The notes beneath the pieces were generated by a model that saw only the letters and a program-made list of their open reading frames with translations, searched no databases and was not told the origin of the DNA. Shown piece after piece: positions 61,836 to 64,000 of a DNA stretch of 64,000 bases. The first letter of the stretch is position 1; each line of letters begins with the position of its first letter. The stretch lies in NCBI RefSeq assembly GCF_000702885.1, contig NZ_JNKO01000009.1, positions 62,001 to 126,000 of the forward strand, read 5' to 3'. This stretch comes from Oribacterium sp. P6A1. GTDB taxonomy: Bacteria > Bacillota > Clostridia > Lachnospirales > Lachnospiraceae. The translations under genes were made by a program, and so were the position numbers.

Positions 61836-64000
61836 TTAAAACTTTGCCCTATTCTTTCGTTTCTTAAGTATTCCAAGAATCAGAGCTGTGAACATGGAGC
61901 CTCCTCCGATGGCAACACAATAAAGTAAGGGGTGTCCCACCACCGGCAGAACAAATATGCCTCCATGGGGCGCCGGCAGGGTGCATCCGAAGATTGATGA
62001 AAGAAATCCTGCAAGTGCGGAACCTGCAATGCATGAAGGTATGACTCTGAAGACGTCTATGATCACATAGGGAATTGCTCCTTCCGTAATAAACGCAAGT
62101 CCCATAAACAGGGATACCATTCCGCCCTGCCGTTCCTCCTTACTGAACATATTCTTAAAGATAAAAGTAGATAGGGCGATACCTATAGGGGGAACCATAC
62201 CTCCTGCCATGATTGCAGCCATAATGATGCTTTCCTTGGAGTCTATGGAAGAAAGCCCATAGTTGTACGCTATTTTGTTGATTATTCCGCCCATGTCTAC
62301 CGACATCATTCCTGCCGCAACCGTGCACACCACATGAATACCACGGGATTTGGCAAAATTCAGAAAAATATTGAAAACCGAGCCAAAGGCATTGGTGATG
62401 GGGCTGATAATAAAAAATGATATGGCCTGAACTATGGTCAGGCTGAATACCGGATAAATGATGATAGGAGCAGCGCCCCTGAAGAATTTGGGAAGCCGGT
62501 TCATAAAGAGATTTATCTCTCTGCTGATCACCCCTGCCGCAAGCCCGGCCAGAGTCGCACCTATGAATCCGGAGTTGGTATTTATCACCATATATCCGCC
62601 TACAAAACCAGCCATAAATGCTGATTCTCCTGCAAGACTGTATGCCATAAATGCAGAAAAAACAGGGAGCATAAAGTTAAAGGTAGTATCTCCCAAAAAT
62701 TTTATATATGTAGCTATGGATGTGATGGAACCGAGGTCTGATCTTTCATCAACAGAAAGGGATGAAAGATCGATACTTGCCGCATCAAAAAGAAAAGCAA
62801 GGGCAATCAGAATACCGCCGCCTGCAACAAAGGGTGTCATCCACTTAACCGCAAAAACCACGCTTGAAAGAAACCGCTCCTTCAATACACTGATGAGACT
62901 TTCAGTCATCTGTGACATACTCTGCCCCGGTGTTTCCGGCTTATATCCCGAAGTACTGTCAGAGACATTTGATGAGCCGAAGCTTAGGACTTCCTTTACC
63001 CCGGCGGTTTCTTTCTCTGCTGCTTCTTTTTTCGAATTACTGAAAACGGTGACCGTGTTCCGACCATTCTGTTTTGACTCATACAGGGCGATATCTGCAT
63101 TTTCGCATAATTCGGATAATGTCATGGCTCTGTAAACAGGAGTTACACCCACACTCACTGTAAAAGAGCATACTTCTTTTTCGGAATCCTCCCGGATTTC
63201 ATCGCACATATCAAGAAGTACCGAATAGGCTTCCTTAGCCGGAAGATTGATGAGACCTATAAATTCGTCTCCTCCCCATCTTCCAGCCATACCTCCGTTT
63301 TTCGAAACCAGTTCCTTTATATGGTCAGCCAAAAGAACCAGCGCCGCATCTCCGCTTGCATGACCGTTTAAGTCATTTATCTGTTTAAAAAAGTCTATAT
63401 CCAGAAGAAAGAGCGACTGTCTGTCAGCCGCCGCAGGCATCTGTTCAGCTTTCCTTTTGAAATCCGCCGTGAAGGACTTTCTGTTTGCCAGCCCCGTCAG
63501 TTCATCCGTAGTGGCAAGCCTTATCAGCTTTGTATTGTATCTGGAGATGATGTTTGATATCAGCACTATGAGCACTATGACCAGAATCACCCCGAGAGAA
63601 AAAATCACCGCATACTGCATGCGCTGTATCTGTCTTTCATTTGAACCATCATTTACGACTATCAAACGATAGTTTCCATGAAAAAAACTGTTGGATATAC
63701 ATATTTCTCTGTCCGCAAGAAAAAGCTTTGTTCCGCTGGTCCATACGGACATACCCGAACCCTCCGTATCCGTGTTCAGATACTTCGAAGGAAACTCCGA
63801 TTTATTGTTATCGGCTTGTGCAAGAATATTCCCTGATGAGTCTGTAAGCCAAAGTGATATCCCTTCATTTGCCCTGCCTGCGGTATGATCATTGAAAATC
63901 TTTGTGACATTCAAATCCCTGTTTCCGGACCAGCTTTTACCGGCAGTATCATCAAGGACATAAGACAGTTCAACCACAACCATCTTAGTCTCGGATTCCT
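61836..64000 (-). CDS. Sensor-GGDEF protein fused to fructose-type PTS EIIC domain (5' end cut by right edge)
   Basis: Open at the right edge: the frame has no stop back to 64000 and the first visible Met (63983) is probably internal. Counting from that Met: extracytoplasmic sensor (CACHE-like, 1-122, cut), membrane helix (123-147), GGDEF domain (about 150-320, intact GGDEF at 237-241, no RxxD), a 50-residue Ser/Glu-rich linker (321-374), then a complete fructose-family EIIC membrane domain (375-710). EIIC marks: TPFVAGGGI (383-391), DMGGIINKIAYN (563-574), MVPPIGIALST (596-606), ITEGAIP (632-638) and APHGGIFV (671-678), plus a KKRKN tail. No EIIA or EIIB domain is attached and no PTS gene is near. 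If expressed as one chain it could tie sugar binding or transport to c-di-GMP synthesis. Confidence 0.88.
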   Translation of the reverse strand, partial: ESETKMVVVELSYVLDDTAGKSWSGNRDLNVTKIFNDHTAGRANEGISLWLTDSSGNILAQADNNKSEFPSKYLNTDTEGSGMSVWTSGTKLFLADREICISNSFFHGNYRLIVVNDGSNERQIQRMQYAVIFSLGVILVIVLIVLISNIISRYNTKLIRLATTDELTGLANRKSFTADFKRKAEQMPAAADRQSLFLLDIDFFKQINDLNGHASGDAALVLLADHIKELVSKNGGMAGRWGGDEFIGLINLPAKEAYSVLLDMCDEIREDSEKEVCSFTVSVGVTPVYRAMTLSELCENADIALYESKQNGRNTVTVFSNSKKEAAEKETAGVKEVLSFGSSNVSDSTSGYKPETPGQSMSQMTESLISVLKERFLSSVVFAVKWMTPFVAGGGILIALAFLFDAASIDLSSLSVDERSDLGSITSIATYIKFLGDTTFNFMLPVFSAFMAYSLAGESAFMAGFVGGYMVINTNSGFIGATLAGLAAGVISREINLFMNRLPKFFRGAAPIIIYPVFSLTIVQAISFFIISPITNAFGSVFNIFLNFAKSRGIHVVCTVAAGMMSVDMGGIINKIAYNYGLSSIDSKESIIMAAIMAGGMVPPIGIALSTFIFKNMFSKEERQGGMVSLFMGLAFITEGAIPYVIIDVFRVIPSCIAGSALAGFLSSIFGCTLPAPHGGIFVLPVVGHPLLYCVAIGGGSMFTALILGILKKRKNRAKF

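Follow-up and report, generated by a model that had tools for sequence, protein, structure and literature searches.

A GGDEF protein carrying a fructose-type EIIC domain in the same chain in Oribacterium sp. P6A1 and other Lachnospiraceae

The fusion gene and its domains

The DNA analysed here (the window) is a 64,000 bp stretch of the gut bacterium Oribacterium sp. P6A1 (contig NZ_JNKO01000009.1; G000:C9:62001-126000 in our numbering of genomes, contigs and loci), taken from a draft assembly of 3.7 Mb in 95 contigs. At its right end, on the minus strand, a single open reading frame (ORF) joined a GGDEF domain to a fructose-type EIIC domain of the phosphotransferase system (PTS), and this gene, hereafter the fusion, is the subject of the present report. 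The ORF (window positions 61836-63998) was open for 720 codons from the window edge to the stop codon, and in 200 mononucleotide shuffles of the same stretch the longest stop-free run was only 207 codons. The adjoining contig sequence (L004) completed the gene beyond the window, where two starts were considered: an upstream ATG giving a frame of 799 aa, and a GTG at L004:8119 giving 760 aa and lying about 118 bases past the window (61836 to ~64118). The GTG is more likely to be the real start, because it is preceded by AGGAGG and lines up with the starts of the relatives. Residue numbers refer throughout to the 799-aa frame.

The GGDEF domain scored 106.4 bits with PF00990 (gathering score 23.8), and both the GGDEF motif and the DxDxFKxxND..xH..GD metal/GTP motif were found in 15/15 of the fusions compared (see below), so that, judged by its motifs, this is an intact diguanylate cyclase domain. 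The RxxD inhibitory site was absent within the 12 residues upstream of GGDEF in all 15 fusions, and product inhibition at that site is thus not expected. The genome of the window also gave 21 EAL matches, suggesting that turnover of cyclic diguanylate (c-di-GMP) is likely in use in this organism.

The C-terminal domain matched the NCBIfam model TIGR01427 (PTS_IIC_fructo) with 276.9 bits (cut-off 157.55) over profile positions 12-346 of 346, and neither EIIA nor EIIB was found in the chain by Pfam or NCBIfam. A preliminary description of this DNA, made from the sequence alone, had proposed an intact GGDEF (residues 237-241 of the visible ORF) and a complete EIIC with its hallmark motifs, joined in one open frame lacking EIIA and EIIB; the residue numbers were correct, the linker frame is intact, and each of these proposals was borne out.

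The N-terminal part outside the membrane, as modelled from 11 aligned sequences (predicted local distance difference test score, pLDDT, of 81), consisted of a long helix and a PAS-like sheet between two transmembrane (TM) helices. This model matched TlpB (3ub7; Foldseek E 8.5e-4) and WalK (7dud; Z 12.6, root-mean-square deviation 2.7, 128 aligned, where a Z below about 13 can be reached by long helices alone), and among extracytoplasmic PAS/CACHE domains it also aligned with CitA. The model thus supports a PAS/CACHE-like outer domain. No Pfam sensor family, CACHE-clan models included, matched it, and because of this the label "CACHE-type" given in the preliminary description derives from the predicted fold only. 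The features and their positions are collected in Table 1.

Table 1. Features of the fusion gene (window positions; residues of the 799-aa frame)
Feature	Position	Strand	Residues	Basis and remarks
Fusion gene, part in the window	61836..64000	-	~79-799	Gene runs to ~64118 for the GTG start
Extracytoplasmic PAS/CACHE-like sensor domain (predicted), visible part	63621..64000	-		Hydropathy and predicted fold
TM helix 1	Beyond the window	-	49-67	Hydropathy
TM helix 2	63555..63611	-	209-227	Hydropathy and model; runs into the signalling helix
GGDEF domain	63057..63515	-	241-393	PF00990; active-site motifs intact
GGDEF motif	63261..63275	-		Sequence
Linker, variable, low-confidence, probably disordered	62898..63044	-	398-446	Model and conservation
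Fructose-type PTS EIIC domain	61863..62882	-	452-791	TIGR01427, 276.9 bits
DMGGIINK motif of EIIC	62274..62297	-		D647 M648 G649 G650 N653 K654 invariant in 15 fusions and 32 FruA
ITEG motif of EIIC	62079..62090	-		Glu718 invariant in fusions and FruA; Gly varies among fusions
APHGG motif of EIIC	61959..61973	-		Sequence; H757 G758 G759 invariant in 15 fusions and 32 FruA

Occurrence of the fusion in other genomes

The preliminary description had suggested a search across Lachnospiraceae, and the fusion was recovered in five genera of this family (f1); together with two metagenome-assembled genomes, Oscillibacter sp. RGIG3402 and Solobacterium sp. RGIG5614, this made at least 17 genomes, in 16 of which the frame from GGDEF to EIIC was uninterrupted. 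Within the genus of the window it was present in 6/17 genomes (G000, the window's own, and G004, G007, G010, G012 and G013), the full-length relatives being 60-67% identical. A sample of 397 genomes of the family added G069, G119 and G410, and an order sample (3/392 at E<=1e-130, G000 included) added G602 and G638. Class (1/391) and phylum (1/398) samples at the same threshold returned G000 only. In these four samples at most two first-look candidates were scored per genome, and more divergent members would escape the order, class and phylum searches at E<=1e-130.

The frequency of the fusion differed between genera: it was found in 3/79 genomes of Butyrivibrio (the genus of G638), in 1/29 genomes of the genus of G602, and in 4/4 genomes of the genus of G119. 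A contig scan with GGDEF-based patterns, of which the best 80 of 577 confirmed loci were kept, gave two fusions (L053 and L054) when ORFs of at least 300 aa in these 80 loci were searched with the EIIC profile. Several candidates were rejected: L123 and L110 on reading by eye, the long FruA-like frames in G048, G188 and G229 as carrying EIIB, and G1556, a possible second case in the genus of G602, as a FruA.

The copy in G1485 was identical to WP_338802811.1, a protein encoded by Butyrivibrio fibrisolvens D1 on its completely sequenced circular plasmid pNP243; on this ground the genus shared by G638 and G1485 is taken as Butyrivibrio and family f1 as Lachnospiraceae. This chain (NZ_CP146964.1; L156:6013-9225) contained sensor, GGDEF, EIIC and sugar-binding parts and is labelled in RefSeq only as "fructose-specific PTS transporter subunit EIIC".

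An assembly error or frameshift in the linker, and separate genes at the locus in related genomes, had both been named beforehand as grounds for doubting the gene. Neither was found: the linker frame was intact and the joined frame recurred in other genomes, and where the halves stood apart, on two contigs of G1568, each stopped at a contig edge. The G1545 copy ran off its contig inside an additional binding domain, and a second copy in G007 (contig C44; L021) contained a stretch of assembly N, which accounts for its interruption, a frameshift there being unproven. Stops flagged in G013 and G004 were located outside the ORFs.

The EIIC domain and the genes beside it

All 13 fusion members tested matched TIGR01427 at E<=0.001. 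The Pfam model PTS_EIIC (PF02378) left the window protein unmatched even at E 10 and matched 5/15 of the members scanned (3/13, plus G1567 = L153 and the pNP243 copy = L156), so that a census based on Pfam would miss most of them. A tree was calculated from 49 EIICs, namely 15 fusions (the G1567 and G1568 copies were left out), 32 FruA, a non-random sample made up mostly of those matching the fusion best, and two other EIICs. All 15 fusions fell into one clade with support 100/100 and a stem length of 0.85, which points to a single-origin family for this EIIC; its exact place among the FruA is unsure, because long branches meet at the join. The clade was divided into two sub-branches, one with G602 and the three Butyrivibrio sequences and the other with all remaining fusions.

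Within the genus of the window the EIIC was the most conserved part of the chain: over the 15 pairs formed by 6 sequences its mean pairwise identity was 0.80, while GGDEF reached 0.69, the sensor 0.60 and the linker 0.24. The ratio of nonsynonymous to synonymous substitution rates (dN/dS) was 0.05-0.15 in the 12 of 15 pairs that were unsaturated, most dS values being high. This conservation within the genus rules out that the EIIC is a decaying passenger. Across the 15 fusions and the 32 FruA, 57 positions were invariant, including D647, M648, G649, G650, N653, K654, E718 and H757. Among 136 positions conserved in FruA, several had changed in the fusions as a group: the FruA-invariant D536-R537-P538 motif was present in 0/15 fusions, with Gly replacing D536 in 15/15 and P538 kept in 0/15, and His465 and Pro651 were each kept in 4/15 (each lost in 11/15). 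By sequence, then, the signature motifs of EIIC are kept while other hallmarks of FruA are gone. No solved structure was found for the window's EIIC by sequence (one unrelated match, E 0.33); the matches of the full-length model included models of E. coli PtsG (9a3b; TM-score 0.52 by target length, 14% identity).

Sugar-related domains accompanied the fusion in several relatives. In the three Butyrivibrio chains (G638, G1485 and G1545) the protein extended past EIIC into a C-terminal RbsB-like domain of the Peripla_BP_4 family (E 4.7e-47 in G638 and 5.1e-50 in pNP243; in G1545 by sequence reading), and the two domains were separated by one further hydrophobic stretch that closes with a lipobox-like sequence (LLLTGC or MFTGC). 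In G602 (L136:4358-7476) the RbsB-like lipoprotein was encoded by a separate gene that shares 17 bases with the fusion gene at the end of the latter, and its best PDB match was the ribose-binding protein (E 1.7e-34). Downstream of it on the same strand lay genes for proteins carrying Dak2, EIIA-man and Dak1 domains (DhaL, DhaM and DhaK-like). These started about 90 bases after the binding-protein gene, making it possible, from the gene order, that one transcript covers the region from the fusion to the Dak genes. In G410 a gene for a ROK kinase began 16 bases after the fusion; no ROK kinase gene was found by ORF reading beside the fusion in G119 or G1567, which belong to the same genus.

Four copies of the fusion in the window's genus faced, tail to tail, a gene for a protein of about 770 aa with a LacI-like sugar-binding domain, lacking a signal peptide, and a GGDEF domain (loci of this type: L017:3628-5934, L018:8385-10691, L020:3595-5901, L021:43-1026, partial, and L144:2676-4994; the domains were scanned for L017). 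On contig C22 of G007 this gene lay away from the fusion. Past the window end, less than 11 kb from the fusion, two further GGDEF proteins were encoded (L004:8447-10006 and L004:16892-18649), one with a long N-terminal region lacking a Pfam match and the other with FIST and FIST_C domains. In G069 (L138:1-1522) overlapping frames with the repeated peptide FQSTHPSRGAT lay upstream of the fusion and look like a DNA repeat array.

Possible roles of the EIIC and comparison with known systems

The reading that we favour, with a probability of about 0.5, is that the fusions form a family of membrane diguanylate cyclases, mainly of Lachnospiraceae, which would have recruited a fructose-type EIIC as a sugar receptor and not as a phosphorylating permease. 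An extracellular ligand would reach the outer domain, and also the RbsB-like domain of the Butyrivibrio/G602 branch, and the outer domain would pull on TM helix 2 and the signalling helix. The EIIC on its flexible linker may add a second input, set by the sugar occupancy or the transport state of the EIIC dimer. Dimers are the active form of diguanylate cyclases, and PTS EIICs are likewise dimeric; the two inputs could jointly govern the way in which the paired GGDEF domains come together and, through it, the c-di-GMP output. An EIIC lacking a dedicated EIIA and EIIB would act in this scheme as a receptor or as a slow facilitator, and we infer that the fusion couples sugar to c-di-GMP. The stricter form of the proposal, in which the EIIC has left group translocation altogether and is a sugar receptor switching the cyclase directly, fed in one branch by a tethered RbsB-like domain, is put forward tentatively and is somewhat doubtful.

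Several points weigh against the favoured reading. The MGGxxNK, ITE and HGG motifs are presumed here to form the sugar pocket of EIIC, and the kept motifs fit a working transporter equally well. No sugar gene was found beside the window's own copy of the fusion. The prediction of the chain structure, suggested in the preliminary description, indicated that TM helix 2 continues as a long helix towards GGDEF; the full-length model was mediocre (pLDDT 69, predicted template modelling score 0.42), and since the linker is variable and poorly predicted, tight mechanical coupling between EIIC and GGDEF is not evident. The EIIC might only tether or dimerise the protein. The remaining points of this kind concern EIIB and bear on the first of the alternatives.

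According to that alternative, which we consider rather unlikely, the EIIC is a working PTS permease that borrows an EIIB, and the GGDEF domain either reads the transport flux or rides along. The 57 positions invariant in fusions and FruA and the strong purifying selection would suit a permease, and partners do exist: the genome of the window has an ordinary FruA (EIIA-EIIB-EIIC) on contig C30 that could lend its EIIB. That contig also held the only EIIB of the genome matching PF02302, the family matched by FruA's EIIB, and none was found with this model on C9 beside the fusion (a separate EIIA was not searched for). PF02302 was present elsewhere in 9/12 fusion genomes scanned, as a possible partner in trans. 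In G004, G010 and G012 it occurred as a stand-alone EIIB (G004:C12:44464, G010:C298:11584 and G012:C58:46051; open frames of 103-116 aa), in G010 as the genome's only PF02302 member, and such proteins could serve in trans, which speaks for a permease. Against it stand the lost FruA-invariant residues, the failure to find PF02302 in the drafts of G119, G410 and G007 (97%, 94% and only 73% complete, respectively), and the failure to find enzyme I (EI) in G410, the sole miss, EI being found in 12/13 genomes scanned. Moreover, no FruA-like EIIC besides the fusion was detected at E<=1e-40 in 4/4 genomes of the genus of G119. In the genus of G119 and G410 the fusion EIIC thus seems to lack a dedicated partner, a point in favour of a receptor or facilitator, with the caveat that these drafts are incomplete. 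The suggestion of the preliminary description that the EIIC may be a sensor gains from these 4/4 genomes, in which it is the sole such EIIC, and from the two of them scanned in which PF02302 was not found; the 9/12 genomes that hold an EIIB elsewhere speak against it.

A second alternative is that the EIIC is a non-phosphorylating facilitator or transceptor, through which free sugar enters to be trapped by a cytosolic kinase, its passage setting the GGDEF domain. The ROK kinase gene that follows the fusion in G410, the sugar-binding protein fused to it or overlapping it in the Butyrivibrio/G602 branch, as if feeding the membrane domain, and the Dak2, EIIA-man and Dak1 genes of G602 would all be accommodated. 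However, ORF reading placed no kinase beside the fusion in G119, G1567 or the genus of the window, and we regard this explanation as unlikely.

It is very unlikely, in our opinion, that the outer PAS/CACHE-like domain is the only sensor and that the EIIC has lost sugar binding and remains as a dimerising membrane anchor. The long helix leading from TM helix 2 towards GGDEF, as in ordinary cyclases, and the flexible, variable linker to EIIC agree with such an arrangement, but a bare anchor would require neither an EIIC conserved above GGDEF and sensor within the genus nor the motifs shared with FruA. Finally, there is hardly any chance that an assembly or frameshift artefact has joined two genes, because the two domains share one frame in 16 genomes, in one case on a plasmid sequenced as a complete circle, and the single observation in its favour, the divided G1568 copy, is met by the contig edges at which both halves end.

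If the stricter form of the proposal is true, the fusion would be a one-protein transceptor from sugar to c-di-GMP, combining parts of the PTS, of ATP-binding cassette (ABC) importers and of c-di-GMP signalling. As one chain holds both an intact cyclase and a recognisable fructose-type EIIC, whether sugar is coupled to c-di-GMP can be tested with a single purified protein. The retention of the fusion in relatives suggests a direct route from sugar to a lifestyle signal, and the family may show how a transporter becomes a receptor. Genome annotation and surveys based on Pfam hide the fusion, as with the plasmid copy of the rumen bacterium B. fibrisolvens D1.

The closest known relative of the EIIC is FruA (EIIABC or EIIBC), with which it shares the TIGR01427 domain and the invariant positions mentioned above; the fusion differs in lacking EIIA and EIIB, in the sensor and GGDEF placed in front, in its separate clade and in the loss of the DRP motif. 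The PDB chains 5xsj, 5xss and 5xsd matched the G602 binding protein, and we take them to be receptors of the XylFII-LytS type, whose output is presumably a histidine kinase. Like the G602/Butyrivibrio branch, such receptors pair an RbsB-like sugar-binding protein with a membrane signalling protein, but they have no EIIC.

No description of a GGDEF-EIIC(Fru) protein was found in the literature covered, subscription papers and preprints lying outside that coverage. The view of the preliminary description that this is an undescribed system stands to that extent, but two kinds of precedent limit it. In the portion of the review PMC8846402 considered here, PTS_EIIC is counted, as a rare phosphoreceiver domain, among the domains joined to c-di-GMP enzymes, and the proteins so counted resemble the fusion in having an EIIC joined to such an enzyme. 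The same portion describes EIIA-Glc and PdeS of V. cholerae, where the state of the PTS likewise controls c-di-GMP, but through separate proteins, a soluble EIIA and a phosphodiesterase instead of a cyclase; the chemoreceptor table given there for c-di-GMP has one sugar system, which acts via a separate PTS protein (PMC8846402). The second precedent is provided by 8qpf, 8qj3 and 8qj4, named ammonium transporter in the PDB, which like the fusion hold a transporter and a GGDEF stretch in one chain (in 8qpf the GGDEF match lies at residues 460-634 of 661). Their transporter belongs to another family, not homologous to EIIC, and their GGDEF lies near the C-terminus, so that the likeness is one of analogy; on this basis we file the fusion with the transporter-domain diguanylate cyclases.

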